Below are positions 16,446-33,373 of a stretch of 64,000 nt of DNA, in pieces. How positions within the stretch are numbered: position 1 is the first letter of the stretch; every line of letters starts with the position of its first letter. The stretch is from Methanosarcinales archaeon. Its GTDB lineage: Archaea; Halobacteriota; Methanosarcinia; Methanosarcinales; Methanoperedenaceae. The notes beneath the pieces were generated by a model. The model made no database searches, was not told the origin of the DNA, and saw only the letters and a program-made list of their open reading frames with translations. The position numbers and the translations under genes are program-made. The stretch lies in contig CAJPFJ010000007.1 in the NCBI GenBank assembly GCA_905339155.1, forward strand, positions 1 to 64,000, in the 5' to 3' direction.

Positions 16446-16449
16446 GATC

Positions 16450-17313: not shown

Positions 17314-17389
17314 ATTTTGCCTCCATATATCATGAATAACAATAGTCATTGGACGCATTTAAGGACTGGCTTACTGGCAAATTGATAAA

Positions 17390-18318: not shown

Positions 18319-19386
18319 TCATTTCTTATAATATGGATTGAACTTGTTTGTATAGATATCAGACGGCTTGAATTGCCCTTCTTTTATTTTTCCATCCTTT
18401 ACAAGCCAGTCTATCCAGAACTGCGCATCGCTATCTGCCAACAGCGCATGTTCTCTTACTCCAAAGCCTCTCCAATATTTTGCCAGATCAGTATTTCCAC
18501 CTTTGTCTTTGAGTACTTTGGCAGCCAATTCCTTTGCCTCCCCCGGGTGCTCCTTTGCCCAGTCTGCAGCTTTTGCTATCCCTTCTGTGAGTCGCTTTGC
18601 TGCATCGGGATTTTCCTTCAGGAATTTATCTGAAGTGAAAAGAACACAATGTGTCTGGTCTCCAATGATATCATAATCCGTGAACAGCACTCTTACACCT
18701 TTGCCTTCTTCGATCTTATCCACGACTACACCCAGCGGAGCGACTACATCCACCTGCCCCTGTTTGAGCACCTGCTCATGCTTGGAAATGCCTATTGGGA
18801 CTAGTTGCACCTGATCCGTGGATATTCCATTTCGAGAAAGGTATTCACGCGTTACATAGTCCACATGCGCGCCCAGGATATTGACTGCTATCTTCTTTCC
18901 AACAAGGTCTTTTGCACTTCGGATGCTGCTGTTCCCAAGTACGATCCATTTTGATAAGAAAGGAGTTCCCTCATACCAGCTTTCTGGCGAGTTGCCCATA
19001 GGAGCCGCAAATGCTGTAATCTCACTTCCCCTTGCTTTGGCGTTGATCACTGAAACCCATGCAGAGTGACCTACGTCCGTACTGCCTGAAGCAACTGCAA
19101 GTATATCTTCAGGACCGCCGGTATATGAACCTTCGCGTGTGAGGTTTATGCCTTTAAGATATCCAAGTTCTTTTGCGAATTCATAAGGCTCAATGATCGT
19201 GCTGGCAGAAAGGTATCGTATCGTAATATCTTTCTGGGATCCAGTTTCACCTACTTGCAATGTCGGATTTGTAGTTTTTATTTCCTGTTTCGGTTCAGCT
19301 TTTGTTTCCTTGACCCATAAAAGGCCAGCAGTCAATATTAAAGCGATGCCAATAAGGATCGCTGCCGTTTTTATATTGGTATTCAT
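18319..19386 (-). CDS. Sulfonate/taurine/nitrate-type ABC substrate-binding protein (SBP3)
   Basis: A 355-residue periplasmic-type binding protein of the SsuA/TauA/NrtA class. It has an N-terminal membrane anchor (AAILIGIALILTAGLLW), GSTDVGHSAWVSVINA near residue 105, then GKKIAVNILGAHVDYVTREYLSRNG, and the family ending FKPSDIYTNKFNPYYKK. There is no lipobox cysteine, so it is probably held by the uncleaved N-terminal helix. It is the last gene of the ATPase-permease-SBP order (20932 to 18319). Sulfonate is the family default; the real ligand is unknown. Confidence 0.85.
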   Translation of the reverse strand: MNTNIKTAAILIGIALILTAGLLWVKETKAEPKQEIKTTNPTLQVGETGSQKDITIRYLSASTIIEPYEFAKELGYLKGINLTREGSYTGGPEDILAVASGSTDVGHSAWVSVINAKARGSEITAFAAPMGNSPESWYEGTPFLSKWIVLGNSSIRSAKDLVGKKIAVNILGAHVDYVTREYLSRNGISTDQVQLVPIGISKHEQVLKQGQVDVVAPLGVVVDKIEEGKGVRVLFTDYDIIGDQTHCVLFTSDKFLKENPDAAKRLTEGIAKAADWAKEHPGEAKELAAKVLKDKGGNTDLAKYWRGFGVREHALLADSDAQFWIDWLVKDGKIKEGQFKPSDIYTNKFNPYYKK

Positions 19387-19398
19387 TTTTATTTTCTT

Positions 19399-20184
19399 CT
19401 ATGATATCGTCATTTCTTCTTTCCATTTCGTTGTGCTTTTCTCAAGCCATACAAGAGAATAATTAGTTATCAATCCAAGAACCGCAAGCACGACGATCGC
19501 TGCGTACATCTCAGGTATCATAAAATTATATTCCCAGTTGATTACCGAGTATCCAAGTCCGGATTTTGCTCCTATCATCTCAGCTGCCACAAGGACGATT
19601 ATCGAGTGAGTCGCACTGAGTCTCACACCTGTGATTATTGAAGGAAGAGATGAGGGAAGGACCACTTTCCTGAACAGGGAAACTTCAGAGGAGCCCATGG
19701 AGCGCTCTGATTTTATGAGAAGTGGATCAACATTTCTCACCCCACTTATTGTATTTAGCAAAATAGGCCACTGTGCGCCCCAGAAGATCACTGCGATCTT
19801 GGATATCTCACCAATGCCCAGGAACAGGATAAATACCGGGAACAGGGAGAGGGATGAAGTCTGCCTTAATGTTTGTACCAGGCCGTCAGCGATCTCCTCA
19901 AAACCACTGTACCAGCCCATTAAAAACCCGAGGGGTATCATCGTTATTGCAGCAAGGGAAAATCCTGTGAAAGCACGCTGCAGGCTGATACTTGTATGCA
20001 CCCACAACTCACCTGATATGAGCAGCCTGATCAAAGCTTCAAAAACTTCAGATGGCGGCGCAAGGAAGGTTTTGCTTATGATGCCGGATGCAGGCAGTAA
20101 TTCCCAGATGAGCAGGAATGCAAACAGTAATATAAACTTTTTAAGGCATTTCCATATCGTTATTTGATGCTTTCTCCCTGACAA
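19399..20184 (-). CDS. ABC transporter permease, SsuC/TauC type
   Basis: A 261-residue BPD_transp_1 permease with about six membrane spans. The coupling EAA-like loop appears as SERSMGSSEVSLFRKVVLPSSLPSIITGVRLS around residue 160-190. It forms the channel for the importer with the ATPase at 20141-20932, whose 3' end overlaps this gene by 44 bases, and delivers ligand from SBP3 downstream. Confidence 0.88.
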   Translation of the reverse strand: MSGRKHQITIWKCLKKFILLFAFLLIWELLPASGIISKTFLAPPSEVFEALIRLLISGELWVHTSISLQRAFTGFSLAAITMIPLGFLMGWYSGFEEIADGLVQTLRQTSSLSLFPVFILFLGIGEISKIAVIFWGAQWPILLNTISGVRNVDPLLIKSERSMGSSEVSLFRKVVLPSSLPSIITGVRLSATHSIIVLVAAEMIGAKSGLGYSVINWEYNFMIPEMYAAIVVLAVLGLITNYSLVWLEKSTTKWKEEMTIS

Positions 20185-20932
20185 GTTTCCCCACCTCCTG
20201 CCGTATTTTTATAAAATCAACACTGGTTCTGTGCTCTTCAAATCTTGGTCTTGGCAATGGCACTTCGACTATTTGTTTTATTACTCCAGGTCTAGCTGAC
20301 ATCACCGCGATCCTGTCTGCCAGGAAAACAGCTTCCTCGATATTATGGGTGACAAAGAGGACAGTTTTTTTTGTTTTTTCCCATATGCGGAGAATTTCAT
20401 TTTGCAGTGTCTCCCTTGTCTGGGCATCAAGTGCAGCAAATGGCTCATCCATCAGTAATATATCTGGATCATATGCCAGAGCCCTTGCAATTGCAACGCG
20501 CTGCTTCATACCGCCGCTTAGCTGGTATGGATAGTGCTCCTCAAAACCCAGGAGGCCGACAAGTGTTACAAATTTTGCGCATATCTCATCCCTTGTTTTC
20601 CCTGGGACCCCTTTTTCTTCAAGCCCATAGGCTATGTTTGCCAGCACGGTCCGCCAGGGGAACAAAGCATAGCCCTGGAACACTATGCCTCGATCATGAT
20701 CCGGCCCATTGATGGCTTTTCCATCTATGTAGATATTGCCAGATGTAGGTTTTATCAGACCTGCCAGGATCTCAAGAAATGTTGATTTCCCGCATCCACT
20801 GGTACCTACGATAGCAAGGAATTCTCCTTCCTCAACTTCCAGGTTTATTCCGCCAATAGCTTCCACCTCTCCATTGGCTCCGTTTTTGCCAGGGAAAAAC
20901 TTCTTGATATCCTCTACCTTTATTTTTATCAT
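20141..20932 (-). CDS. ABC transporter ATP-binding protein, SsuB/TauB type
   Basis: A 263-residue ATPase. Walker A GTSGCGKST is near residue 43, the Q-loop is VFQGYALFPW, the signature is LSGGMKQR, Walker B is DILLMDEPFAALD and the switch is FVTHN. The insert GANGEVEAIGGINL is normal for this class. It is the first gene of the three-gene importer; the shared promoter element (20969-21036) sits 37 bases upstream of its ATG, so the importer belongs to that regulon. Confidence 0.9.
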   Translation of the reverse strand: MIKIKVEDIKKFFPGKNGANGEVEAIGGINLEVEEGEFLAIVGTSGCGKSTFLEILAGLIKPTSGNIYIDGKAINGPDHDRGIVFQGYALFPWRTVLANIAYGLEEKGVPGKTRDEICAKFVTLVGLLGFEEHYPYQLSGGMKQRVAIARALAYDPDILLMDEPFAALDAQTRETLQNEILRIWEKTKKTVLFVTHNIEEAVFLADRIAVMSARPGVIKQIVEVPLPRPRFEEHRTSVDFIKIRQEVGKLVREKASNNDMEMP

Positions 20933-20968
20933 GCTCTTCCGATCATTTCACAATCTTTGGAATGAAAG

Positions 20969-21036
20969 ATATATAGAAGTAGAGAAATCAGCAAGTGTTG
21001 TCTTTTTTATTCGGAAAAGTGAAGGATTGCGGCAAA
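20969..21036 (-). promoter_or_regulatory. Shared promoter element ahead of the ABC importer operon
   Basis: Minus strand order: TTTGCCGCAATCCTTC, CTTTTCCGAATAAA, GACAACACTTGCTGATTT, nine bases (CTCTACTTC), TATATAT. The TATA edge is 37 bases from the start codon. All blocks and the nine-base gap agree with the elements at 34.6, 35.9 and 38.9 kb. Confidence 0.75.
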
Positions 21037-21041
21037 TCTAT

Positions 21042-22148
21042 CTATCGATATTTAGAACCGTAATGCGCCAGAACCCCTGCGATAACACCCAGCGCCGGGT
21101 TTGTTGCCAGGCTCATAACTACAACCAGTAATGCAACACTCCGGTCTCCCTTATTCACATTTTTGAAAACACTTGCAAGTTCAAAACCACTGTAAAATAA
21201 CAAACATCCAATTACTGCGATCGGTATGATCCTGAGAAAATCCAGTCCACTATCTCCAAAGAATAACCCTGTGAAGATTAGCAGACTACCCAGCATGATC
21301 GGCGCGGCTTTTGTCCTTGCGCCGAATTTGTAGTGCGCTGCAACACCTCCGCTGCCGTGGCACATGGGCATGCCCCCAAGAGAACCTGAAAAAAGATTTG
21401 CAATACCCATACTTGTGGATAGATTATTGGCATTTGCTCTTTTATGCCCGGGATAGATGTTATGGGATAATGCAGAGGTTGCAATGACGGCATTTGTCAG
21501 GGTCAAAGGAATCTGGATTAAGACAAAAGTCAGCATGGTTGTACTGAATAGATCGCCGACATTAGGTAAGTTGATTTCCGGAAGAGAGAATCCGGGAACT
21601 ATAGCAGGAAATTCTTTAATCAGACCTGTTAAATATCCAAGCAGAATGCCAAGGATCAGGGCAATAATTGCAGTCGGAAATCGGCTATTTTGAAACAGCA
21701 AAAACATTATGACAAGTATGATCAGCCCCAGCAGCAGTTGCTGCATAATAAATTTTATTCCAACAAAAACAAGAGAAATTCCAAGGGCTGTCTGGATCCC
21801 GATAGAAACAATTCCTGGTGTATGTTTAACCAGCCATTTTACCGCACCTGTAATCCACAGCACCAAAAGTATGATCCCGATAGCCACCGATGCCGCTGCA
21901 ATCGCTCCCGGAGTCAACTCATAAGATATAGCGTAAGCAGAAGCAGCTTTCATCGGCTGGACTGCCATGGGAAAACCGTAGAACATACCGGAAAATAAGT
22001 AAAATATGCCAAAAGTAGTAAAAACACTTGATGGGGACAGGTGGTTGATAGAGATCGCACTGATCACAAAAGGAAGGAAAGTCCCAAGATCACCGAGTGA
22101 TCCGGAGGCTTCTGATATGATGAATTTTAAGCGATCTATAGGTTTCAT
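21042..22148 (-). CDS. MOT1-type molybdate/sulfate transporter
   Basis: A 368-residue polytopic membrane protein. Two related halves carry the motif seen in molybdate transporters of the MOT1 family (SGSLGDLGTFLPF at residues 15-27, PMAVQPMKAASAYA near 60, then GLFSGSLGGMPMCHGSGGVAAHYKFGARTK). These import molybdate or sulfate. It lies between the DrrAB-type exporter and the sulfonate-type importer on the same strand. The shared promoter element of the ABC operon begins six bases beyond its stop, so the importer is transcribed separately from it. Confidence 0.82.
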   Translation of the reverse strand: MKPIDRLKFIISEASGSLGDLGTFLPFVISAISINHLSPSSVFTTFGIFYLFSGMFYGFPMAVQPMKAASAYAISYELTPGAIAAASVAIGIILLVLWITGAVKWLVKHTPGIVSIGIQTALGISLVFVGIKFIMQQLLLGLIILVIMFLLFQNSRFPTAIIALILGILLGYLTGLIKEFPAIVPGFSLPEINLPNVGDLFSTTMLTFVLIQIPLTLTNAVIATSALSHNIYPGHKRANANNLSTSMGIANLFSGSLGGMPMCHGSGGVAAHYKFGARTKAAPIMLGSLLIFTGLFFGDSGLDFLRIIPIAVIGCLLFYSGFELASVFKNVNKGDRSVALLVVVMSLATNPALGVIAGVLAHYGSKYR

Positions 22149-22241
22149 TCACTACGAGCTGGCATAATTTTTAATCTGTGCGCATTTTGCGCTCTTCGCG
22201 GTTCAAAATATGTTATTGATTTTTTTACCATTTGATTCTCC

Positions 22242-22997
22242 TTATTTTTTTTCATTGAAGATCCATGATGTGATGAATAACATAAAGCTTGAAAAAACAG
22301 ACAAAACCAAAAGATCAAAATACAGAGAATACTGGCTTTCATTAATTATGATCCCACGGATTGCATCCACACCATATGTCATCGGGTTTAACGAACTCAG
22401 GGTTTGTAACCACCCGGGGGCATTTGTAAGGGGAAACAAAGCGCCGCTTAAAAAGAACGTTGGCATAATTATAAAACTCATTATAGTCTGGAATCCTTCA
22501 AAACTATCCATGATGGAAGCTATAAAAAGTCCAAAACAATCAAATCCAAGGGATATCAAAAGCATTATTGGTATTATAAGAATAATATGCAATGGCGATA
22601 TGTGGACGCCAACAATAAAAGATAGCAGAAGTAACAACGTGCCCTGGATCAATGCATTTGTAGCTCCTCCCAACGCCTTTCCTATTACGATCGACGTCCT
22701 GGAAATCGGTGAAACGAGGATCTCTTTTAAGAACCCGAACTCGCGATCCCATATGACGGATATCCCTGAACGCATTGATGTAAAGAGAAGGGTCATTCCT
22801 ACGATACCAGGAAAAATAAATTCGTTGTATCCGGATGTTATCACGCCTGTCCTGAGATTGATCCCCATGCCTGCGCCAAATATGATAAGCCACAGGAATG
22901 GAGTTGTCATGGCGCTTGCGAAATGTATCCTTTCACGGTAGAACTTGATGATCTCCCGAAGCCATATTGAATATACCCCGCGCAGTTCTCTTCTCAT
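22242..22997 (-). CDS. ABC-2 type exporter permease, DrrB-like
   Basis: About 251 residues from ATG 22997, chosen because it starts one base after the stop of the partner ATPase. Upstream in-frame ATGs would overlap that gene by more than 100 bases. It has six membrane spans with the ABC-2 C-terminal pattern LSPMTYGVDAIRGI (here SLNPMTYGVDAIRG). With the DrrA-type ATPase it would export a hydrophobic or lipid-like compound. Confidence 0.88.
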   Translation of the reverse strand: MRRELRGVYSIWLREIIKFYRERIHFASAMTTPFLWLIIFGAGMGINLRTGVITSGYNEFIFPGIVGMTLLFTSMRSGISVIWDREFGFLKEILVSPISRTSIVIGKALGGATNALIQGTLLLLLSFIVGVHISPLHIILIIPIMLLISLGFDCFGLFIASIMDSFEGFQTIMSFIIMPTFFLSGALFPLTNAPGWLQTLSSLNPMTYGVDAIRGIIINESQYSLYFDLLVLSVFSSFMLFITSWIFNEKK

Positions 22998-22998
22998 C

Positions 22999-23982
22999 TT
23001 ATCTGCCCCTGCGCTTTCGCTTATACATACTGATGAAATTATCCTCCCCTTCCTCGCGGATCTGCCTGCCCGTATGATGCAGGAATACATCATGCAGTGT
23101 TGGCTCATCAATATCGATTGAATCTACTGCTATATGCAGATCCTGTGCACTATTGATTATTCGCACAGCATTCATTGATCCCTGTTTCACATTCAAGCTC
23201 AATCTATCCTGTGATGCCTGCATTTGCAGGATATAATCCTGCCCGGAAAGTCCGGTTGCGAGCTTATCCGGATATTTTGTCCGTACTATGATGTTGTCAC
23301 CTGCAAGGAAACTTTTGAGGTGTTCCGGTGTATCCCTGACTTTGATGATGCCATGATCAATGATCGCTATATCATTGCAGAGAAGGTCAGCTTCATCCAT
23401 GTAATGTGTTGTCATGATAATCGTCAATTTTTCTTCTTGCGCAAGTGTTTTTATGTAGTCCCAGATGTGTTCCCGCGTTTGGGGGTCCAATCCGATGGTC
23501 GGCTCATCCAGGAATAATATTTCGGGATTATGAATAAGCCCGCGCGCCATTTCAAGACGCCGTACCATACCTCCGGAAAATGTCCTGACAAGAGAATCAG
23601 CCCTGTCCTCAAGTCCCACAAGTTTGAGGACTTCCCGTATCCGCCTGCCCATTATTTTTGATGGGACATCATAAAGCATGGCATGAAATCTCAGGTTCTC
23701 GCGAGCCGTGAGCCGATCATCCACGCTTATGCTCTGGAAGACTATGCCTATGCTTTGCCTTACCCTGGCAGAGTCTTTGATTATATCATATCCATTGACA
23801 ATTGCAGAACCTGATGTGGGATTTACGATCGTGCACAGCATTGAAAGTATCGTGCTTTTCCCTGCGCCGTTGGGGCCAAGGAGACCGAATATCTTCCCTG
23901 TTTCTACCTTGAGGTTGAGGTTATTTACTGCGGTTAAGGTTTTGTATTTTTTTGTGAGGTTAGTTGTTTCGATTGCGTACAT
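22999..23982 (-). CDS. ABC-2 exporter ATP-binding protein, DrrA-like
   Basis: A 327-residue ATPase: Walker A GPNGAGKST near residue 38, Q-loop FQSISVD, signature FSGGMVRRLE, Walker B EILFLDEPTIGLD, switch TTHYMDEADLLC, and a DrrA-type C-terminal domain of about 100 residues. It powers the permease encoded one base downstream. The gene starts six bases from the stop of tusA, so the exporter is probably co-transcribed with the dehydratase/TusA genes. Confidence 0.9.
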   Translation of the reverse strand: MYAIETTNLTKKYKTLTAVNNLNLKVETGKIFGLLGPNGAGKSTILSMLCTIVNPTSGSAIVNGYDIIKDSARVRQSIGIVFQSISVDDRLTARENLRFHAMLYDVPSKIMGRRIREVLKLVGLEDRADSLVRTFSGGMVRRLEMARGLIHNPEILFLDEPTIGLDPQTREHIWDYIKTLAQEEKLTIIMTTHYMDEADLLCNDIAIIDHGIIKVRDTPEHLKSFLAGDNIIVRTKYPDKLATGLSGQDYILQMQASQDRLSLNVKQGSMNAVRIINSAQDLHIAVDSIDIDEPTLHDVFLHHTGRQIREEGEDNFISMYKRKRRGR

Positions 23983-23987
23983 TTATT

Positions 23988-24221
23988 CTATCCTTTCTTC
24001 ACAAATATATGGTATGCTCCCTCTTTGGTCTCGACATCCAGGAACTCATCACCGGATTTGGTCAACCATACATCAATATTCTGCCATGCTTCAGGGTCGC
24101 TTGCTATAACCTCAAGTATTTCACCCTTTTTAAGTAATTTTATCTGCTGTAATGTCCTTATTCGGGGATAGGGGCATTTTTCGCCCCTGACATCTAACTT
24201 AACATTTGGAACCATTGTCAT
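23988..24221 (-). CDS. TusA-family sulfur carrier protein
   Basis: A 77-residue TusA/SirA-like protein. The persulfide-carrying cysteine is in LDVRGEKCPYPRIRTLQ (CPxP motif). Members relay sulfane sulfur to acceptors in tRNA thiolation, molybdenum cofactor and other sulfur pathways. It is 12 bases downstream of a dehydratase-family gene and in the same transcript direction. Its presence within the sulfonate-type transport/dehydratase array points to sulfur chemistry. A second intact paralog (42.8 kb) and a broken one (43.1 kb) are nearby. Confidence 0.88.
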   Translation of the reverse strand: MTMVPNVKLDVRGEKCPYPRIRTLQQIKLLKKGEILEVIASDPEAWQNIDVWLTKSGDEFLDVETKEGAYHIFVKKG

Positions 24222-24233
24222 ATTGCTGCCTCT

Positions 24234-25634
24234 TTACCTCAACATCTCTATGAATATCTCAACCCTGCTATGCATCTGTTCATGTCCTTCCCGACTTTCA
24301 GCCATAGCTCGCTCGATAGTTATAGTTGGAATTCCCGTCTCTTCCCTGACAACATCCGCAACCATTCTTGCCGCACCGGACTGGTAATTGCATCCCCACT
24401 GGTGCATAAATATCAGACCGTCTGCATTTGATCTTACTACCTGCTCTGCCGTCCATAAACCCCGTTCTTCAGTTGGAAGTTCGTATGGGAAAGAAACAAT
24501 TGCTTTCGCCAATTTTTCATATGGATCTCCTGTTTCCTCAACATCCACGGATACCTCACTCCATCCGTCATCCTTTCCTACTACAACTCCCCCCAAACTG
24601 TCCACATGTTTCATACTCGGATTTACACATGAACCGCATATGAACAACCTTACCGGATCGTCTTCTATCCCTTCTCCTTTAATTGAATTCTTAACGCTGT
24701 CTTTCACTTCATTGTAAGATTCCTCAAGTATCTGTTTTGCTGCCACAGGATCGCTGTTGCTTTCGTTGCCAAGCTGCATTATGCCTGTGTGATCCGTACT
24801 GTTGGTGGGCGGTACTTTTGCCCCCCACCACAGCTTTACATAATCCCTGGCAAGCCTGCGTTTCTGGTTGTGGAGTTTGATCTCATTCATGATATCTTCA
24901 TCAGTAACTTCCCTATTACCCAACTCTCCAATTTTTTGGGTCAGCCTGCGAAGATTATCAGCCACATATTCTGCTGCCCATTTTTTATCGCGTTGATGGT
25001 TAACCGGGGAATCAACTAAAAGAAGCGGAATTTTTATATTGCCATGCCTGTGCGCTTCAACGCCATATGCGATATCTGAGCAGCGCAGGCACAGGTATGG
25101 AGCTATTAAAGCTATAGGCACCATGCCTTCCTGGATTATCTCGTATTTTGCCGTCTGGCATGCCTCTACTGTCAATTCCTGCCTTCCGATCTCTCTTATC
25201 TGGAGCCTTCGAAAATCTGCTTCCTGATAGTCCTGGTTTTCCTTGAGATTGGTAGCCCATCCATTCACCATGCCAGGTCTTGTGGGTATTCCTCCGGCTG
25301 CATAATACGGCTCGTGTGTTTGCCCACCCTGTATGAAAACAACTGGAACCCCATTGCGGGCTGCCTCTGTAAGGCGGTCATGGACAGTAATGCTAAAATA
25401 ATTCCGTTTTACGCCGCTTATCAGATTCGTGTCTTTTGACAGGCCATGATATCGACTATCGCTGAATAAATGTGGATGTCTTCGCGGTCCCTCTTCAGTC
25501 ATGAAGTCCCATATATCACCGGGCGTTACCCGCCTGCCGTCCCTGAATACAAGATCATCGGTTTCAAAAAACCTGGATCTTACTTCTTCTGGATATTGAA
25601 ATAGTTCTTTAGTTCTTGTCATAGTGTCATCCAT
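24234..25634 (-). CDS. 2-hydroxyacyl-CoA dehydratase / double-cubane family protein A1
   Basis: A 466-residue member of the HgdB/BcrC/FldB family (2-hydroxyacyl-CoA dehydratase D-component), with a ~100-residue N-terminal extension. Cluster-ligand candidates are YLCLRCSDIAYG, ICGSCVNPS and HQWGCNYQSGAARM. The C-terminal helix ends SRVEIFIEMLR. The family uses an [4Fe-4S] or double-cubane [8Fe-9S] centre reduced by an ATP-dependent activator (present at 32.5 kb). It starts directly after the stop of SBP1. Length and architecture match A2 at 29.9 kb. The substrate is not known, and CoA-ester dehydration should not be assumed. Confidence 0.8.
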   Translation of the reverse strand: MDDTMTRTKELFQYPEEVRSRFFETDDLVFRDGRRVTPGDIWDFMTEEGPRRHPHLFSDSRYHGLSKDTNLISGVKRNYFSITVHDRLTEAARNGVPVVFIQGGQTHEPYYAAGGIPTRPGMVNGWATNLKENQDYQEADFRRLQIREIGRQELTVEACQTAKYEIIQEGMVPIALIAPYLCLRCSDIAYGVEAHRHGNIKIPLLLVDSPVNHQRDKKWAAEYVADNLRRLTQKIGELGNREVTDEDIMNEIKLHNQKRRLARDYVKLWWGAKVPPTNSTDHTGIMQLGNESNSDPVAAKQILEESYNEVKDSVKNSIKGEGIEDDPVRLFICGSCVNPSMKHVDSLGGVVVGKDDGWSEVSVDVEETGDPYEKLAKAIVSFPYELPTEERGLWTAEQVVRSNADGLIFMHQWGCNYQSGAARMVADVVREETGIPTITIERAMAESREGHEQMHSRVEIFIEMLR

Positions 25635-26654
25635 TTATTTTTTATAATAACTATTATATTCATTTGTATAAACATCAGAAGGCTTGATCTGGCCTGGTTT
25701 TAATTTTCCTTCCTTTTCCCATACATCAAGCCACCACTGTATGTCGTTGTCATTTGGGTATGGATGCTCTGGTGAATGTGTTGGTCTGTAATATTTTGCC
25801 AGTTTGGAATTCCCGCCTTTTCCTTCGTATATCTGTGCTACCGCTTTTTTTACCCGTTGCGGGTCTTTCTGGAACTCTTCCCATACCAAGCGTCTTGAAT
25901 TCTCGTAAACCCGGACAAATCTTTTAACAGTATCAGGATTTTCTTTAATAAAATCCTCCCTGAATCCCTCGCCGTATGTCAGCACATCTCCCCTGACATC
26001 ATATACAGTGAACAGCACCCTGAGCCCGCCTTTTTCAAGTGCCATATTGACATTCGGGGGTCCGATAGCTGCAACATCAACCTGTCCGCTTCTTAATACC
26101 TGCTCCTGCTGGGCAGCAGGCACAACGACAAGTTGAACCTGGTCAATAGATAAACCGTTTTGCTTCAAGTACTCCCGCATCACATAATCCACTTCAGCTC
26201 CCAGTACATTCAATGCAAGTTTTTTACCTACAAAATCATTGGCTGTATGGATCTTGCTCTCATTCAGGACAACCCATGTGAAACTTGGATCATCCTTTGA
26301 CCGAACACTTCTCCCGACGACCGCCTTTATTTTTCCACCGCTTGAAATAACATTTATCCAGGATGTCCAGGACGAACCTGCAAAATCAATGTTTTTAGCA
26401 AGAAGAGCCTGTAGGCTCTGTGTACCACCCGTGCTCTGCACAGAATTAATCAATTCAAGCTTTATACCTTCTTCTGCGAGGAAATCTCTTCCAGTCAGTT
26501 TTTGTGCGATCTCCCAGCTATTCACTGTATCAGGGCTATCGAGAATGCGGATGGTAGCAAGGGTTTCAACCGGCTTATCTTCCTGTGAAAAAAATAATCC
26601 CGTACCAATAATGGCTATAGCAACTATGGACCAGACTTTTATGCTATTGTTCAT
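25635..26654 (-). CDS. Sulfonate/taurine/nitrate-type ABC substrate-binding protein (SBP1)
   Basis: A 339-residue relative of SBP2 and SBP3. N-terminal anchor IVAIAIIGTGLFFSQEDK, the motif QALLAKNIDFAGSSWTSWINV, GKKLALNVLGAEVDYVMREYLKQNG and the common ending IKPSDVYTNEYNSYYKK. It shares the array with only one permease/ATPase pair on this transcript (28.1-29.8 kb), which suggests that SBP1 and SBP2 are alternative ligand receptors for one channel. Its stop touches the ATG of dehydratase A1. Confidence 0.85.
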   Translation of the reverse strand: MNNSIKVWSIVAIAIIGTGLFFSQEDKPVETLATIRILDSPDTVNSWEIAQKLTGRDFLAEEGIKLELINSVQSTGGTQSLQALLAKNIDFAGSSWTSWINVISSGGKIKAVVGRSVRSKDDPSFTWVVLNESKIHTANDFVGKKLALNVLGAEVDYVMREYLKQNGLSIDQVQLVVVPAAQQEQVLRSGQVDVAAIGPPNVNMALEKGGLRVLFTVYDVRGDVLTYGEGFREDFIKENPDTVKRFVRVYENSRRLVWEEFQKDPQRVKKAVAQIYEGKGGNSKLAKYYRPTHSPEHPYPNDNDIQWWLDVWEKEGKLKPGQIKPSDVYTNEYNSYYKK

Positions 26655-26666
26655 TTTCTAACCTGC

Positions 26667-26987
26667 CTACCTGAGCATTTCTATGAATGCCTCAACCCTG
26701 TTGTGGGACTGTTCCAGAGCCTTGCGCCTGCCAAGTTCTGCCAGCTCAATGTTTATGGCTTTTCTACTCTCTTCACGAATTTTATTGCCTCTTATATCTG
26801 CTTCTCTAAGATTCAGCCCTTCTTTTTTGTTAAGAGCCCACTGGCTTATGAAAGCAGGTCTTGCAGGTATCCCTCCAGCTGCATAATAAGGTTCCATCCC
26901 CTGCCCGCCCTGTATAAAAACGATCGGTACGCCGCTATTCTGGGCTTTTATCTCTTCTGGATATCTGAAAATATCATCTTTTGACAT
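26667..26987 (-). CDS. Miniature dehydratase-family protein lacking the catalytic core
   Basis: A 106-residue protein assembled from three pieces of the A1/A2 family: residues 1-13 match their N-terminus (FRYPEEI), about 14-79 match A2 residues 87-155 (GVPIVFIQGGQ, EPYYAAGGIPARP, EGLNLREADIRG), and the last ~27 match the A2 C-terminus (ELGRRKALEQSHNRVEAF). Two in-frame deletions of about 73 and 280 residues removed every cluster cysteine. The frame is intact and has a good AAGGAG site eight bases before ATG. It could be a decaying duplicate or a surviving scaffold or subunit-like piece. Confidence 0.75.
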   Translation of the reverse strand: MSKDDIFRYPEEIKAQNSGVPIVFIQGGQGMEPYYAAGGIPARPAFISQWALNKKEGLNLREADIRGNKIREESRKAINIELAELGRRKALEQSHNRVEAFIEMLR

Positions 26988-28045
26988 TATTTAACTCCTT
27001 TTTTTTCAATATATTCTTTATAAAATGAATTGAATTCATATGTATAGATATCAGATGGCTTTATTTGTCCGGGTTTCAGTTTTCCTTCAGACTCAAAAAT
27101 ATCAAGCCAATACTGAATATCCCGGTCGGTAGCAAATGGATACTCTGGTGACCAGGTGGGTATGTAATACCTGGCTAACTTCGGATTCGCGCCTTTTTCC
27201 GAATATATTTCTTCTACAGTCTTTTTCACGCGGTCCGGATTCTTCTGGTACTCTTCCCAGACCAGGCGCAAAGATTTTTCGTATGCTGTGATGAAACTTT
27301 TTACAGCTTCAGGATATTTTTTTATAAAATCTTCCCTGAATCCATGCCCCAGGATTATATTATTCCCTTTTAGGTCATAACTCCTGCTGCCCGGCAATTG
27401 CCTGAGTCCACCCTTTTCAATTGCTATGTTGAAATATAGATCGTTAAACGATGCTGCTGCATCTACCTGTTTACTCCTTAAGACCTGCTCTTGCTGCGCC
27501 CAGGGTACTACAATAAGCTGAACCTGATCTATTGAAAGTCCGGTCTGGGAAAGATATTGCCTTGTCAAATAGTCATATTCAGCCCCCAGTACATTGACTG
27601 ATATTTTTTTTCCTATGAGATCTTTGGCTGAATATATACTGCTATTTTCCAGAACTACTAACCCTGAGCCTGGTTTATCCGGAGTGACCACAGATGTACT
27701 AAAAACAGCCTTTATCTTTCCGCCACTGGCGAGTATATTTATCCATGCAGGCCATGCTGATCCGGCAAAATCAATATTATTTGCAAGAAGAGCCTGAAGA
27801 CTCTGTGTACCACCTGTGCTCTGCACAGAAGAAATTAGCTCAAGCTTTACTCCCTCTTCTGCCAGGATGTCCCTGCCGTCCAATTTTTTTATGATCTCCC
27901 AGTTATTTATAGTATCCGGGCTATCCAGAATTCTGATCGCAACCGTTTCTTCATTCTGTTTTTCTCCATTCGTGAAAAACAATCCTGCTCCAACAATCGC
28001 AAAGGCAATGACCGCTATGGATAAAAATTTTATATTATTGCTCAT
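26987..28045 (-). CDS. Sulfonate/taurine/nitrate-type ABC substrate-binding protein (SBP2)
   Basis: A 352-residue binding protein. N-terminal anchor LSIAVIAFAIVGAGLFFT, QALLANNIDFAGSAWPAWINI, GKKISVNVLGAEYDYLTRQYLSQTG and ending IKPSDIYTYEFNSFYKEY. Very similar to SBP1, from which it is separated by the miniature dehydratase gene. It directly follows its permease gene and overlaps the miniature gene's start by one base. Confidence 0.85.
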   Translation of the reverse strand: MSNNIKFLSIAVIAFAIVGAGLFFTNGEKQNEETVAIRILDSPDTINNWEIIKKLDGRDILAEEGVKLELISSVQSTGGTQSLQALLANNIDFAGSAWPAWINILASGGKIKAVFSTSVVTPDKPGSGLVVLENSSIYSAKDLIGKKISVNVLGAEYDYLTRQYLSQTGLSIDQVQLIVVPWAQQEQVLRSKQVDAAASFNDLYFNIAIEKGGLRQLPGSRSYDLKGNNIILGHGFREDFIKKYPEAVKSFITAYEKSLRLVWEEYQKNPDRVKKTVEEIYSEKGANPKLARYYIPTWSPEYPFATDRDIQYWLDIFESEGKLKPGQIKPSDIYTYEFNSFYKEYIEKKGVK

Positions 28046-28064
28046 CTAATAATTACCCCTGTTT

Positions 28065-28928
28065 TTATCCGAGAATCGCCCTATCCAGGTCTCCCTTCCA
28101 GGAAGTTGTTTTCTTTTCAAACCAGACCAGGCTATAATTTACAGCGAGTCCTATGATAGTCAGTGTAAGGATTCCTGCATACATTTCAGGTATCATAAAA
28201 TTGAACTGTGCATTCTGGATAAAGAAACCAAGCCCTGTTTTTGCTCCGATCATTTCAGCTGCAATAACTACAAGAATGGCTATTTTCGCACCCAGCCTTG
28301 CTCCTGAAACTATGGATGGCATGCTTGCAGGAAGTATGACTTTCCTGAATAGTTCCTTATCCGAAACCCCCATCGATTTGGCTGCTTTTATAAAGATCGG
28401 ATCAACATTCTTGACACCGCTAATGGTGTTTATCAGGATCTGCCATACAGCGCCATAAAATATGATTACTATTTTAGATGTCTCACCAAGTCCAAAGAAC
28501 AAGAGGACCACAGGAAGCAAGGCAAATATAGAAATATTTCTCAGACTTTGCATGAAAAGATCAGCATAACTTTCAAATTTGCTATACCACCCCATCAAGA
28601 AACCCAGCGGAACTCCTACCAATACAGCCAGCCCAAACCCTATGATGGACCTCTTTAGACTTGCTCCTATATGTACGAACAGTTTGCCTGATACCATGAG
28701 ATCGATCATGGTTTTAATCGTCTCGGAAAACGTGGGCAGGAACATTGGATCGACAACACCTATTCTGGGCAAAATCTCCCATAAGGCAAAAAATAAAAAT
28801 ACGACCAAAAGACCTCGTGAAGATTTGCTTATTTTTTCTTTTAAAGAAACAAATTTATTTGCTATACCGCCGATCTCAACAGATCGGGATTTGTATTCAT
28901 CTTTCGAACTAAATATTTCTCCGGACAT
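28065..28928 (-). CDS. ABC transporter permease, SsuC/TauC type
   Basis: A 287-residue permease with six spans after a ~35-residue polar N-terminus. Coupling loop: AAKSMGVSDKELFRKVILPASMPSIVSGARLG. AAGGAG lies ten bases before ATG. It lies between its ATPase (28965-29804) and SBP2, and probably serves both SBP1 and SBP2. Close paralog of the permease at 19.4 kb. Confidence 0.88.
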   Translation of the reverse strand: MSGEIFSSKDEYKSRSVEIGGIANKFVSLKEKISKSSRGLLVVFLFFALWEILPRIGVVDPMFLPTFSETIKTMIDLMVSGKLFVHIGASLKRSIIGFGLAVLVGVPLGFLMGWYSKFESYADLFMQSLRNISIFALLPVVLLFFGLGETSKIVIIFYGAVWQILINTISGVKNVDPIFIKAAKSMGVSDKELFRKVILPASMPSIVSGARLGAKIAILVVIAAEMIGAKTGLGFFIQNAQFNFMIPEMYAGILTLTIIGLAVNYSLVWFEKKTTSWKGDLDRAILG

Positions 28929-28964
28929 TATTATTAACTCCTTTTTATAATATAAATTCCAATC

Positions 28965-29804
28965 TCACTTCGCATAAACCGATGCAAGCTCCCAGTCCTT
29001 CTGCGCTTTGAGCACTTCTCCTTTGAGGGCATCCCATACTTTATGACGATTATTGGCAAATTCATTAGTTGATCTTATGTTCCCATCCCTGGGTCTTGGA
29101 AGATCGATGTCTATCATCGTCTTGACAATTCCAGGTCTTGCAGTAAAGACTGCAACCCTATCTGCAAGGAATATTGCTTCATCAATGCTATGAGTCACAA
29201 ATATGACAGTTGTACCCGTCCCTTCCCAGATTCTCAAAAGTTCATTCTGGAGAATTTCCCGTGTCTGGGCATCAAGAGCCGCAAAGGGTTCATCCATTAA
29301 AAGCACATCCGGATTTGTCGCTAATGCTCTTGCTATTGCAACACGCTGCTGCATTCCTCCGGAAAGTTGATAGGGGAACCTGTCCCAGAAATCTGAAAGC
29401 CCAAAGGTGGAGAGCAGCTTTTTTGCGACTTTTGTTCTCTCTTCCCGGGGCACATGCTGCATCTCAAGTCCGAATTCAATATTCGAAAGAGCATTTCTCC
29501 ATGGGAACAATGCGTACTGCTGGAACACATATCCTGTTTTAAGAGTTGGTTTATCGATCGGTTTTCCATCCAGGTAGATCGTTCCGCTAGTAGCGTTCGT
29601 CAATCCGCCTATAATATCAAGAAAAACAGATTTCCCACATCCGCTTGGTCCAACTATAGTAAGGAACTCTCCCTTTACGATACTCAGGTCAACGCCTGCC
29701 AGGACTTCAACTTCATTTGACACTATTCCATCGTTTTTTACCTGCTGACCTTCCTTAAGCTTGAATTTTTTCTTAACCTGGTCTGATTTTATTTTTTCTG
29801 ACAT
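28965..29804 (-). CDS. ABC transporter ATP-binding protein, SsuB/TauB type
   Basis: About 279 residues from ATG 29804, preferred over the in-frame GTG at 29825 because AAGGGG lies six bases upstream. Walker A GPSGCGKSVF, Q-loop VFQQYALFPW, signature LSGGMQQR, Walker B DVLLMDEPFAALD, switch FVTHS. The Walker A ends GKSV rather than GKST, an unusual but tolerated change that deserves checking. It follows dehydratase A2 by about 70 bases on the same strand. Confidence 0.88.
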   Translation of the reverse strand: MSEKIKSDQVKKKFKLKEGQQVKNDGIVSNEVEVLAGVDLSIVKGEFLTIVGPSGCGKSVFLDIIGGLTNATSGTIYLDGKPIDKPTLKTGYVFQQYALFPWRNALSNIEFGLEMQHVPREERTKVAKKLLSTFGLSDFWDRFPYQLSGGMQQRVAIARALATNPDVLLMDEPFAALDAQTREILQNELLRIWEGTGTTVIFVTHSIDEAIFLADRVAVFTARPGIVKTMIDIDLPRPRDGNIRSTNEFANNRHKVWDALKGEVLKAQKDWELASVYAK

Positions 29805-29873
29805 ACTTAGCCCCTTTATAGTCACCTAGTACCTGCTTCCCATTGAGATCTGCCGCCGAATTCAGCCATAAGG

Positions 29874-31265
29874 TCAGTTCAGCATCTCAATAAATGCCTC
29901 TACCCTGTTGTGAGATTGCTCAAGCGCTTCCATGCGACCAAGTTCTCCTACCTCGACGTAGGTGGTCGGGAGTCCGGTTCTGTCTTTAATTATGTCCGAG
30001 ATCATCCGCGCTACAGATGTCTGGAAATTGCATCCCCAGTTGAACATGAAAATCACGCCATCAGCTCTTGATTTTTGTGCTTGCTCGGCGGTCCATTCCG
30101 CTCTTCCCTCAGTAGATCGCTCATATGGGAAAGACAATATCGCTTCTGCAAGGTTTTCGTAAGGATCTCCGGTCTCTTTTACAATTGTTGAAGCTTCGCT
30201 CCAGAAATCATCCTTCCCGACAACAACAGCGCCTGCTTTATCAACCAGGAAAGGGTTCGGGCCAACACATGAACCGCAAATGTAGAGCCTGGAAGGATCG
30301 TCCTTCAAACCTGCGCCTTTGACGCCATGTTTGACACGCTCCTTTAGCTCTTCTCGTGTTTCTTCCAGTACCCTGGTCGAAGCGGAATAATCACCGCAGC
30401 CATCTACACCAAAAGGTACGATTCCGCTGTGATCAACGCTATTGGTGGGTGGTACTTTTGCATTCCACCAGATTTCATAGCAATCGCGCACAAGTTCGCG
30501 TGCTTTATTTTCACGCTTGATCTCTGCCCTTAACGCTTCATCTGTCACTTCTTTATTTGAAAGCTCGCCAATTTTGCCTGTTAAAGTTTCAAGCTCTTTC
30601 TTGAGATACTCTTTTTTCCATTCGCCTGGATTGTGATCGATCGGATGGTCAACGAGATATGTCGGAACAGTTCTTTTTCCATGACGATGTGATTCCACAA
30701 GGTATGCCATATCAGAGCAGCGAAGGCACAGGTATGGTGCAACAAAATCCACAGGAACAATATTATCCTGCACTGCCGAATGTGCTGCTATCTGGTTGCA
30801 TGCTTCGATAGTAACGCCCTTCCTTCCTTCCTCTAAGATCGACATTCCCCTGAGGTCTGATTCTCGCAAATTCAGTCCCTCTTTCATGGTTCGAGCCCAA
30901 TTCATCACGAATCCGGGTCTTAGTGGAATGCCGCCAGCCGCATAATAGGGTTCAACGGTCTGTCCTCCCTGTACAAGGACTACGGGAACCCCATTTTTGT
31001 GCGCATCAAGCATACGATCACGTAGAGTAAGTGACAAAAAGCTTCGCTTTATGCCGCTTAAGAAGTTCACGTCACTTGATATGCGTCCGGCAAAGTGGAC
31101 GCTTTTATCAAATGCATATGGAAATCTGACAGGTGCCTCTTTGGTCATGAATTTCCATATTTCGGCTGCTGATACCTGCCGTCCGTTACTGAATTCGAGA
31201 CCATTGGTCTCGGAAAATGCTGGTCCAAGTTCATCCGGATACCTGAAAAGATCTCCTGAACTCAT
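29874..31265 (-). CDS. 2-hydroxyacyl-CoA dehydratase / double-cubane family protein A2
   Basis: A 463-residue protein. Residues 1-90 are an extension unique to the A1/A2 type; the rest is the HgdB-like double Rossmann-type fold. Cysteines at 156, 180, 183 (APYLCLRCSD), 330, 333 (ICGSCVGP) and 412 (WGCNFQTS) are shared with A1 and are the likely cluster ligands. It starts inside the end of the B-type gene (ATGA overlap), so B and A2 are probably made in equal amounts as a heterodimer. It is fed electrons by the ATPase activator two genes upstream. Substrate unknown. Confidence 0.82.
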   Translation of the reverse strand: MSSGDLFRYPDELGPAFSETNGLEFSNGRQVSAAEIWKFMTKEAPVRFPYAFDKSVHFAGRISSDVNFLSGIKRSFLSLTLRDRMLDAHKNGVPVVLVQGGQTVEPYYAAGGIPLRPGFVMNWARTMKEGLNLRESDLRGMSILEEGRKGVTIEACNQIAAHSAVQDNIVPVDFVAPYLCLRCSDMAYLVESHRHGKRTVPTYLVDHPIDHNPGEWKKEYLKKELETLTGKIGELSNKEVTDEALRAEIKRENKARELVRDCYEIWWNAKVPPTNSVDHSGIVPFGVDGCGDYSASTRVLEETREELKERVKHGVKGAGLKDDPSRLYICGSCVGPNPFLVDKAGAVVVGKDDFWSEASTIVKETGDPYENLAEAILSFPYERSTEGRAEWTAEQAQKSRADGVIFMFNWGCNFQTSVARMISDIIKDRTGLPTTYVEVGELGRMEALEQSHNRVEAFIEMLN

Positions 31266-32449
31266 GCTTCCATCACCTGGAGATTCTTATTTTTTACTAA
31301 TTCCACGAAAGCCTCGGCTCTCGTTCGAATAGCTTCGACATCAGAGCCTGCATATTCCGTATGGATCTCAAGCAGCGGTATTCCCTCTTTCCTGAGTACG
31401 TCCTTTGTTTCCCCGGCCTTGAAAGTGAAGGGATCGCAGTATCTAAGTGTGTGATAGATTACTCCCTGTGCCCTGTAATCCTTTATTTGTTGCTTCAGAT
31501 TCGCAAGTCGCCCGTCTGTTTCCAGGTCAAGATAAGGCAGTGCTGCGTGAGGAACACGGTTGATATATGCATCTGCTATGCCGTTTATGGACGGCTCTTT
31601 AATATTGACGTTCAGTATCGGATTAAGACCGGACCAGAGATCATCACCTACGATTCTTCCGCCAACCTTCTCAATAATACTTATCAGCTTTGTATCTTTG
31701 GGAGGAATTATGCTGCCTGATAGGAAGATACGGGCATCCCCATTAAGATTTCCAATTTTTGCTATGCCATGTTTTTCTTTTAGCTCTTTTAGAAGTTCCT
31801 GCAGTAATGAATTATATCGCCCCCTATCCAGGTAATATCCTGCATGTATCACATCGAAAACTTCACGCCATTTTATGGGTGCTTTATCAATTGCCTGGTA
31901 GTTGTAAAGTTCTTTAACGGATTTCCTTATACTATTGTAAAGTTTGACGGAATCTGCAAGCTTATTCGTATCAAGTTTGTTTCCGGCAAATTCTTCTAAT
32001 TTCTGTGTAAAGGCTTCCACTTCTTTGCGGAAATAAACCTGGCCTTCAGGTGAAGTAAAATTTCTTGGTACTCCAAGGATAATGGTATTTGCCTTGAAAT
32101 AATATTTTATGAGCTCTGCAACGCGGTAAATTTGCAGGCAGGTCGCATCCACGGCAACCAGGTCCGAATTCCGGATATAGGGATCCTTATTTTCTGCAAA
32201 AAGACCCACGGTTTCTCTTGCGTATACGCAATTTTTTGTGGAGATATATCTTGCGCCGATCTCAACTAACCTGTCGTCTCCTCCTGCACCCAGCCTGATG
32301 GGAATTAATCCTAATGCATGGATTATCTCTTCAGGGATATTGTAATTAAGCCATCCAACTACTTTTGCTCCGGTTTTTTTTGCTTCTTCAAGTTCCAGAG
32401 GTCTTCCCTTTACTGCTTCTTCTATTTTTCTTAAAGTCTCTAATGCCAT
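31262..32449 (-). CDS. 2-hydroxyacyl-CoA dehydratase / double-cubane family protein B
   Basis: A 395-residue canonical-length member of the family (GWLNYNIPEEIIHALGLIPIRLG, then GRPLELEE at the N-terminus). Candidate ligand cysteines: C74 (STKNCVYAR), C104 (DATCLQIYR) and a late RYCDPFTFK, the three-cysteine pattern of the family. It starts two bases after the activator stop and overlaps A2 by four bases. The tight order activator-B-A2 is the standard layout of hgdCAB-like operons and of double-cubane proteins. Confidence 0.87.
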   Translation of the reverse strand: MALETLRKIEEAVKGRPLELEEAKKTGAKVVGWLNYNIPEEIIHALGLIPIRLGAGGDDRLVEIGARYISTKNCVYARETVGLFAENKDPYIRNSDLVAVDATCLQIYRVAELIKYYFKANTIILGVPRNFTSPEGQVYFRKEVEAFTQKLEEFAGNKLDTNKLADSVKLYNSIRKSVKELYNYQAIDKAPIKWREVFDVIHAGYYLDRGRYNSLLQELLKELKEKHGIAKIGNLNGDARIFLSGSIIPPKDTKLISIIEKVGGRIVGDDLWSGLNPILNVNIKEPSINGIADAYINRVPHAALPYLDLETDGRLANLKQQIKDYRAQGVIYHTLRYCDPFTFKAGETKDVLRKEGIPLLEIHTEYAGSDVEAIRTRAEAFVELVKNKNLQVMEA

Positions 32450-32451
32450 AA

Positions 32452-33258
32452 TTACACCTTTTGGCCGTAGCTCCTGGCGAGCACTGCCGCTCCAAGAGCC
32501 CCAACTAACTGCGGGTCATATTCCGGCGCCACTATCTTTGCTTTAAGTACTTCTTCCAGCGCAGCTTTCATCCCCACATTTTTTGCAACTCCTCCAGAGA
32601 AGAAAACATCGCTCTCCACACCGACACGGGAAAACATCCCTGATATCCTGTTGGCAATAGCGTGGTGTATTCCTTTAATGATATTCTCTGGTTTCTCGCC
32701 TCTTGCAAGCAGTGAGATCGTCTCAGATTCTGCAAAAACCGTGCATGTGCTGCTCATCGGGACGATTTCTTTTGCCTCTAATGACATCGGACCCAGGTCG
32801 TTCAGTTTAACTTTGAAAACATTTGCCATTACTTCAAGGAACCTGCCTGTGCCTGCTGCGCATTTGTCATTCATTGCAAAATCTACAACATTGCCCTTTT
32901 CATCCAGGCGGATCGCTTTGCAATCCTGTCCACCCATGTCAATTATTGTCCTGGTTGTAGGGTGCAGGTAATGTGCTCCCCTTCCGTGGCAGGTAATCTC
33001 AGTTATTGTTTTATCTGCATAAGGCGCTGAGATCCTTCCATAACCGGTTGCAACTATGTATTTAAGGTCATCACGCGTGATTTTTGCAACGGTAAGCGCT
33101 TTCTCAAGAGCAAGCAAGCCACTCTCTTCTGAATTTAATCCTGATGGAACAAGACCATAGCCAGCTATTGAGCCATTTGATACAATTACCGATTTAGCTG
33201 TCAGCGAACCTACATCCACACCAGCGAATGGTGGTTTTATATTTTCTTTTTGTGTCAT
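32452..33258 (-). CDS. ATP-dependent activator of 2-hydroxyacyl-CoA dehydratase (archerase, HgdC/BadF family)
   Basis: A 268-residue ASKHA-fold ATPase. DVGSLTAKSVI is the phosphate-1 loop, DMGGQDCKAI the second. The two cluster cysteines sit in NDKCAAGTGRF (C133) and STCTVFAESE (C172), 39 residues apart as in Acidaminococcus HgdC, so a dimer can hold the bridging [4Fe-4S] cluster. It uses ATP hydrolysis to push a low-potential electron into the partner dehydratase. First gene of the array downstream of a shared promoter element. Confidence 0.93.
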   Translation of the reverse strand: MTQKENIKPPFAGVDVGSLTAKSVIVSNGSIAGYGLVPSGLNSEESGLLALEKALTVAKITRDDLKYIVATGYGRISAPYADKTITEITCHGRGAHYLHPTTRTIIDMGGQDCKAIRLDEKGNVVDFAMNDKCAAGTGRFLEVMANVFKVKLNDLGPMSLEAKEIVPMSSTCTVFAESETISLLARGEKPENIIKGIHHAIANRISGMFSRVGVESDVFFSGGVAKNVGMKAALEEVLKAKIVAPEYDPQLVGALGAAVLARSYGQKV

Positions 33259-33303: not shown

Positions 33304-33373
33304 GATATATCACAGTTTAGAAATCAGCAACTATCGCCCCATTTCACCCAGAATCCGCATGATTACGGCAATA
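33304..33373 (-). promoter_or_regulatory. Shared promoter element ahead of the activator-dehydratase operon
   Basis: Minus strand: TATTGCC near the MFS stop, then GATAGTTGCTGATTT, nine bases (CTAAACTGT), GATATAT. The GACAAC half is degenerate (GGCGATAG) but TTGCTGATTT and the nine-base gap are exact. TATA lies 46 bases from the activator ATG. Confidence 0.6.

Follow-up and report, generated by a model that had tools for sequence, protein, structure and literature searches.

A recurrent gene array joins a dehydratase-type ATP-driven enzyme to sulfonate-type importers and has a likely role in sulfur metabolism

What does an ATP-driven enzyme of the dehydratase type do in a gene array rich in transporters? 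The question is raised by positions 18319-33258, minus strand, of a 64,000-nucleotide stretch of DNA (the window) from a Methanosarcinales archaeon of the Methanoperedenaceae (GenBank assembly GCA_905339155.1, contig CAJPFJ010000007.1). The array encodes an HgdC-type activator, one B subunit and two long A-type subunits, together with two importer ATPase and permease sets and three NMT1-type substrate-binding proteins (SBPs). To our knowledge, coenzyme A (CoA) thioesters are the substrates of every activator-dependent member of this family for which the natural substrate has been established. We find that the gene set recurs in archaea and bacteria and that its sulfur role is likely. In the best reading of the enzyme itself, to which we give close to an even chance, it uses ATP to cleave an organosulfur anion reductively, in a reaction coupled to import and independent of CoA.

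Pfam and NCBIfam searches located on the minus strand every gene that a preliminary description of the window had listed, and comparison with A1 added one that it had missed, a third copy of A. The features are as follows.

32452..33258, minus: HgdC-type ATP-dependent activator (TIGR00241, 275.6 bits, cut-off 125.4; PF01869, 217 bits)
31262..32449, minus: B subunit, HadC/BzdN/DCCP-like, cysteines C74/C104/C338 (PF06050, 275 bits)
29874..31265, minus: A1, long A-type subunit, 463 residues, 4-bp overlap with B (PF06050, 152 bits)
28965..29825, minus: ATP2, importer ATPase (PF00005, 117 bits)
28065..28928, minus: Perm2, importer permease (PF00528, 97.6 bits)
26987..28045, minus: SBP3, NMT1-type binding protein (PF09084, 59 bits)
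26667..26987, minus: A3 remnant, a 106-residue A gene with an internal deletion (partial A1 matches)
25635..26654, minus: SBP2, NMT1-type binding protein (PF09084, 75 bits)
24234..25634, minus: A2, long A-type subunit, 466 residues (PF06050, 151 bits)
23988..24221, minus: TusA-family sulfur carrier, single cysteine C16 (PF01206, 74 bits)
22999..23982, minus: DrrA-type exporter ATPase (TIGR01188, 355 bits, cut-off 312)
22242..23111, minus: DrrB-type exporter permease (TIGR01247, 235.6 bits, cut-off 223)
21042..22148, minus: MFS_MOT1 anion transporter (PF16983, 170 bits)
20141..20932, minus: ATP1, importer ATPase (PF00005, 115 bits)
19399..20184, minus: Perm1, importer permease (PF00528, 87 bits)
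18319..19386, minus: SBP1, NMT1-type binding protein, closer to 3qsl/THI13 than to SsuA (PF09084, 92.6 bits)
33363..34550, minus: MFS1, major facilitator transporter flanking the array, possible accessory (PF07690)
34675..35895, minus: MFS2, second major facilitator transporter, possible accessory (PF07690)

From HgdC to DrrB the intergenic spacing runs from -113 to 48 bp (start codons as in the open reading frame list), and MOT1 is flanked by larger gaps of 93 and 109 bp. A1 and A2 are 52% identical. The A3 remnant matches A1 over residues 86-154 (61%) and 437-462 (81%); it lacks the middle and much of the N-terminal part, and its frame is still open. With this remnant in place the order reads A1, ATPase, permease, SBP3, A3 remnant, SBP2, A2, TusA, and A and binding-protein genes are thus seen to alternate along the array. 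The remnant suggests that substrate modules are gained and lost over time.

The PF06050 subunits and the adjacent BadF/HgdC-type activator place the enzyme in the superfamily of class I benzoyl-CoA reductases and 2-hydroxyacyl-CoA dehydratases (HADs). The preliminary description had proposed an activator with both HgdC cluster cysteines, and this was borne out: TIGR00241 is passed well above its cut-off, and C133 and C172, as well as C90, are invariant in 22 aligned activators. We take C133 and C172 to be the cysteines that carry the bridging cluster. Along with these activators, 44 A and 28 B sequences were aligned after removal of exact duplicates and of sequences below 400 (A), 340 (B) and 240 (HgdC) residues, the A3 remnant and partial genes being among those omitted. 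Three A cysteines (159, 185 and 415, A2 numbering) are invariant in 44/44 sequences and others are variable (182 in 29, 333 in 26 and 336 in 40 of the 44). Only three B columns hold cysteine in more than 30% of rows (C74, C104 and C338); all are invariant, and the window's B has no cysteine beyond them.

These counts bear on the type of cluster. HadC has three cluster cysteines. An excerpt of PMC11971306 gives six cysteine ligands for BzdN, a proven double cubane, three for BzdO, which holds one [4Fe-4S]-OH2 cluster, and three cluster cysteines for HadB. By profile alignment, B has equivalents of BzdN C73, C100 and C327 and lacks those of C36, C263 and C293, the remaining ligand columns holding N35, W272 and H301 or a neighbour. 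An HgdC-HGD-D fusion protein from another genome of our set (G983), aligned with B, retains cysteine at all six double-cubane columns, so the six-column test is able to succeed. With three invariant cysteines in each of A and B, the window enzyme thus shows, at the level of sequence, the pattern expected of dehydratase-like subunits with single clusters, and the earlier "double-cubane" label does not hold.

Comparison with solved structures and curated models places the enzyme near the characterized families, with scores under their cut-offs. The B profile matches DCCP (7yyl, 2.8e-50) and the HAD beta subunit (3o3m_B, 2.6e-37), and the A profile aligns residues 132-463 with the catalytic HAD alpha subunit (3o3m_A). 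The first ~130 A residues fall outside every solved-structure match, and the N terminus of A is extended by a diverged stretch of some 65-70 residues. The best NCBIfam model for A1, A2 and B alike is NF040772 (DCCP, cut-off 350), against which B scores 214.7, A1 75.8 and A2 74.2. The HadBC models NF052455 and NF052456 give 34.0 of 750 and 113.4 of 700 for B, and 37.5 (A2) and 32.3 (A1) of 700. Against the benzoyl-CoA reductase models B scores 111.7 of 421 (BcrC) and 82.3 of 454 (BzdN), A2 19.6 of 449 (BzdO), and HgdC 235.6 against a BzdQ cut-off of 380.2. A1, A2 and B thus reach no curated NCBIfam cut-off of any characterized family. The enzyme forms a new subfamily within a known kind, and its setting is new as well.

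How widespread is it? The preliminary description had suggested looking for the gene order in other archaea; the gene set recurs, more than chance would give, in 19 genomes that carry the long A subunit: nine archaeal genomes, Ruminiclostridium hungatei, and nine genomes of the phylum of a Chlorobiaceae metagenome-assembled genome (MAG), namely the MAG itself and eight others. Genomes, contigs and loci other than the window's are cited below by G, C and L numbers, and G000 is the window's own genome. Profile searches recovered A in 2/61 relatives of G197, 5/60 relatives of G000, 9/198 genomes of the MAG's phylum and 4/232 genomes of the order of G405 (the named genome included in each count), and R. 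hungatei is the sole carrier among 391 genomes of its class and among 119 of its relatives, itself counted both times. An A1 query of 392 phylum genomes, an even sample of a larger group, gave full-length matches only in G000 and G197; at 1e-10 it matched 13 of the 392, 11 of them only at the C-terminal part, in shorter HGD-D frames. Two loci, those of the Chlorobiaceae MAG and R. hungatei, emerged from a scan of named genome contigs with two short peptide patterns, a set that may omit records near the window's genome. A2 as query detected no A copy on plasmids, and among 49 stretches of viral contigs picked out by two peptide patterns no A copy was confirmed.

A tree of 44 A proteins unites the window's A2 with one protein each from G821 and R. 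hungatei (support 100/100), and an R. hungatei A is 68% identical to A2, above the identity of A1 to A2. The tree requires 6 changes among three host groups where the minimum is 2, a count that carries a long-branch warning, with the placement of the window's A1 less sure. Transfer between domains is the simple reading of this tree, and we conclude that the system is real and recurrent and has probably spread by gene transfer. A very divergent A relative (G1039, L090:325-1785) is 31% identical to A1 and keeps the three invariant cysteines; near it lie an activator 56% identical to the window's HgdC and an SBP3-like protein (54%).

The neighbourhood of A was compared by BLAST of fetched loci against reference genes from the window and several sister loci; these genes count as matches by construction in their own loci (including G000 and G410). 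Genes in related loci are longest-open-reading-frame picks rather than annotations, and the loci read are a selection that leaves out, for example, G1003 C34, G940 C114 and C117, and G870 C44. B and/or HgdC lies within 10 kb of A in 19/19 genomes and an NMT1/SsuA-like binding protein in 15/19; G405, G1203, G411 and G1202 lack one, the contig in G1202 being 3.7 kb long. There is no NMT1/SsuA-like binding protein at four HGD-D loci of other kinds (G000 C12, C68 and C37; G363 C31); C37 fell under the BLAST limit of the comparison and was judged separately. The pairing of an ATP-driven activator/dehydratase-type enzyme with importers resembling sulfonate importers, as originally proposed, is therefore upheld. 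Around the single HGD-D subunit of L036, L037 (G000 C12 and C68) and L027 (G363) we noted a conserved set of its own, with an ArsR-looking regulator and a DsrE-looking protein (by eye) and, in C12 and G363, an activator.

The sulfur link extends in archaea beyond the TusA of the preliminary description. Sulfur-assimilation genes of three kinds lie near A in 5/9 archaeal genomes. TusA is found in the G000 and G806 arrays as 92% identical copies (2/19 genomes in all). The G821 array contains MetY, MetX and MetW, the latter two over their NCBIfam cut-offs, and that of G817 a MetY piece and MetW. The G197 array contains ThiS, a MetY-like enzyme, ThiF, JAB and a sulfite-reductase-like protein. These amount to about three independent cases, G000 and G806 being of one genus and G821 and G817 of another. 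In the MAG's phylum, a Porin_O_P protein accompanies A in 9/9 carriers (by Pfam for L028, by BLAST for the others), fitting an anion substrate.

The binding proteins point toward sulfonate importers to varying degrees. Two sister-array proteins exceed the SsuA-family cut-off of 163.5 bits (L028, 173.8; L085, 254), and their best solved matches are SsuA proteins (1e-39 and 1.2e-20). The best solved relatives of SBP3 (3uif, E 1.3e-9) and SBP2 (2x26, E 5.4e-6) are likewise SsuA, at weaker scores than those of L028 and L085. Counted genome-wide (E 1e-8), all NMT1-family copies lie within the array in G000 (3/3), G197 (2/2) and G987 (1/1); none lies near A in G405 and G1203 (two copies each) or R. 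hungatei (twelve); and in the other twelve genomes searched some copies fall within the arrays or contigs read and some elsewhere. SaoX proved a false lead, the binding proteins matching it weakly (25-67 bits versus 300; see also PMC13188914).

A parallel arrangement is found on contig C26 of G983 (L113-L114, 1-36000). Relatives of the window's importer genes, namely those for an ATPase (76% identity to ATP2), a permease (63% to Perm2) and three binding proteins (50-53% to SBP3), stand there with genes for a NifH-like protein (381.5 bits, just below the nifH cut-off of 394.35), two nitrogenase-component-1-like proteins (PF00148, 219 and 223 bits) and six variant radical S-adenosylmethionine (SAM) genes. 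A different HgdC/HGD-D set, including the activator-HGD-D fusion, is present as well. These gene types match those of Rhodobacter capsulatus IsrBHDK, a nitrogenase-like system with radical SAM, and SsuCAB, which according to an excerpt of PMC11423573 free sulfite from isethionate, a function deduced there from mutants and gene transfer. Related importers thus adjoin, on sequence evidence, both kinds of ATP-driven reductase. By analogy, the window array is best read as coupling the import of a sulfonate-type anion to a reductive attack on it. None of the array's Pfam-scanned proteins is a nitrogenase-like HDK component.

The radical SAM gene (NF045502) was rejected as an obligatory partner and is an occasional one at most. 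It exceeds its cut-off in 17/198 genomes of the MAG's phylum and in 7/9 of the A carriers (Fisher p 3e-7, a test that ignores relatedness, so that both genes may mark one clade), and sits no more than about 130 bp from A in G870, G983, G1003 and G1043.

We can sketch how such a system might operate. SsuA/TauA-like ATP-binding cassette importers would take up a small anion. HgdC would act as the ATP-driven electron activator and charge B, a shared electron-transfer subunit, which would hand low-potential electrons singly to A. Several A copies would share one B and one HgdC, and the occurrence of several A per B and activator suggests that A carries substrate specificity; A copies often adjoin a binding protein. 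As the catalytic subunit, A would hold a [4Fe-4S] cluster with one open iron site and, dispensing with CoA activation, cut a carbon-sulfur bond by radical elimination, releasing sulfite or sulfide. The freed sulfur would enter cysteine or homocysteine synthesis, in some hosts via TusA, MetXYW or a ThiS-type carrier, and DrrAB and the major facilitator transporters could export by-products.

Several observations weigh against organosulfur cleavage. The preliminary description's sulfonate-type importers stand as a resemblance to the SsuA family, and the assignment weakens within the window, where SBP1 (99.4) and SBP2 (97.3) fall under the SsuA cut-off and the solved relatives of SBP1 are 3qsl (1.9e-12) and THI13 (1.3e-8), that is, THI13/THI5-like. 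Sister proteins from L091 (155.2), L086 (124.7), L088 (99.3) and L093 (75.7) also score below it. The glutamine that contacts the sulfonate in TauA (PMC6906117, in excerpt) is, by eye, not evident in L085. The importers beside the enzyme are CUT1-type (SBP_bac_1) in R. hungatei, while G405 has BtuF-type binding proteins, an FecCD-type permease and MoeA there, and G1203 has BtuF-type and SBP_bac_5 binding proteins, an FecCD-type permease and MoeA-like genes. The sulfur genes tested for are near A in 0/10 bacterial genomes and are not near it in 4/9 archaeal ones. Sulfite reductase was discarded as evidence: the family is present in 9/9 A genomes and also in 11/14 controls, and is uninformative. 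SAM-dependent methyltransferases (G197, G806) and an S-adenosylhomocysteine hydrolase (G806) are left unexplained, and in R. hungatei one HgdC-A-B set has after it a nitroreductase gene and a gene of the D-2-hydroxyacid dehydrogenase family (PF02826).

The alternative that best survives these points is the same machine with another cargo, a small non-organosulfur anion such as an oxyanion, a nitrogen compound or an organic acid, the sulfur genes being incidental. NMT1 proteins take many ligands, and the importer families beside the enzyme vary (NMT1, CUT1, BtuF, SBP_bac_5). The methyltransferases, of which several related ones are interleaved with the arrays of L088 (G806) and L025 (G197), would together with the hydrolase in the G806 array and exporters elsewhere fit conversion and export rather than assimilation. 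Set against this are the sulfur-assimilation genes, of three kinds, that lie close to A in archaea and the SsuA proteins among the best matches of the binding proteins, and we regard another cargo as a serious but rather unlikely explanation. Its arsenic version was rejected, as nine aligned methyltransferases share no conserved cysteine.

A classical CoA-ester enzyme, that is, a 2-hydroxyacyl-CoA dehydratase or an aromatic acyl-CoA reductase whose substrate derives from an imported acid, would account for the superfamily membership, the HgdC activator, the three-cysteine pattern and the alignment of A with the HAD alpha subunit. Classical dehydratase clusters also contain a 2-hydroxyacid dehydrogenase, and the PF02826 neighbour favours a classical dehydratase at that one R. 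hungatei locus. Yet the window proteins stay under the equivalog cut-offs (A at 76 of 350 or lower; B at 215/350, 113/700 and 112/421), the ~130 residues at the start of A lie beyond all solved-structure matches, and no CoA ligase or CoA transferase was seen among the Pfam-scanned neighbours, many others being unscanned. Placement of A1, A2 and B in a characterized CoA-ester dehydratase clade, which the preliminary description had named as fatal to its proposal, was assessed by the curated cut-offs alone and did not result. Overall, we consider a CoA-ester enzyme improbable. The nitroreductase-family genes beside the R. hungatei set (L029:12709-14344) and beside the G983 HgdC/HGD-D set (L113:18800-19321) are 42% identical. 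Contig 6 of R. hungatei (L049-L050) carries four further A copies, B copies and CUT1-type binding proteins. In the same region are an NADH-dependent [FeFe] hydrogenase, accompanied by a NuoF-like partner, and a TatD-linked radical SAM gene.

Alternatively, the enzyme might reduce an imported cofactor (a corrinoid, molybdenum or an iron complex) or activate another enzyme. In G405 and G1203 the genes next to A, for BtuF-type proteins, an FecCD-type permease and MoeA-like proteins, suggest this, as does MOT1 in the window. Such neighbours come from two genomes of one archaeal genus, however, against NMT1-type importers in 15/19 genomes, and MOT1 lies near A in the window alone among the loci compared, and this route is likewise improbable. 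Five loci of these two genomes (L034, L035, L052, L100 and L101) set HgdC-B-A beside BtuF-type binding proteins; at a distance of some 15-20 kb, G405 also has a sulfite-reductase-like gene (29% identity to its G197 counterpart) and a gene that by eye resembles FmdE. Finally, a double-cubane reductase of the DCCP kind, to which the best solved relative of B and the best NCBIfam model of all three subunits point, is very improbable given three cysteine columns in the 28 B sequences (30% level), three invariant cysteines in the 44 A sequences and the absence from B, by alignment, of three of the six ligands.

Other genes of the array recur with it to differing extents. DrrA and DrrB have relatives in the G197 array (67% and 68.5% identical) and Perm1 in G821 (81%). 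MFS1 has relatives in the G821 array (69%) and in G197 (50%), and MFS2 in those of G821, G817 and G806 (67-68%). NifX-like (PF02579) and DUF2099 genes adjoin the array (window 16077-17358, minus strand); both stand beside the array in G821 and the NifX-like gene in G817, as syntenic neighbours. Base composition is 43.8% within the array and 41.4% elsewhere, which is uninformative.

A CoA-free, importer-coupled branch of the family would widen the chemistry of ATP-driven radical enzymes and would name a missing route from small anions to sulfur (or another element) in strict anaerobes. More broadly, and more tentatively, the array may represent a new ATP-driven anaerobic sulfur-scavenging route built on the radical-dehydratase scaffold, a parallel development to the isethionate and methylthio-alkane reductases of the nitrogenase-like kind. 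Such a route would not depend on CoA, would use exchangeable A subunits that each serve a particular imported substrate of the sulfonate type, and would have moved between archaea and two or more lineages of bacteria. Among the papers listed in searches of the open-licence PubMed Central literature we recognized none describing the array, which does not prove that no description has been published. R. hungatei DSM 14427, one of the carriers, is numbered in a strain collection, and the question is thus open to growth experiments.

A comparison with known systems shows where the array would fit. It resembles the 2-hydroxyacyl-CoA dehydratases (HadI/HadBC, HgdC/HgdAB) in its HgdC activator, its two HGD-D subunits with three cluster-type cysteines each, and the way A and B align to the alpha and beta subunits, respectively. 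It differs from them in the N-terminal extension of A, in scores under the family cut-offs, in having importers rather than CoA enzymes nearby, and in the several A per B of some arrays. With the class I benzoyl-CoA reductases (BzdNOPQ, BcrABCD, MbdNO) it shares ATP-driven electron activation and a heterodimeric HGD-D enzyme, whereas the window has no six-cysteine subunit, its scores fall under the cut-offs and no aromatic-degradation genes were recognized among the neighbours. DCCP is the nearest solved relative of B, but B lacks three of its six ligand cysteines. TudS thiouridine desulfidase belongs to the same superfamily and removes sulfur with an iron-sulfur cluster, yet it has one domain and is described, in an excerpt of PMC11971306, as sulfur-transferring rather than radical-generating. 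IsrBHDK with SsuCAB offers an ATP-driven low-potential reductase, an SsuA-type importer, a link to sulfur assimilation and a radical SAM component, the last paralleled in some arrays only (NF045502, not compared with IsrB); its enzyme is nitrogenase-like, of an unrelated family, and has no such genes in the window array.

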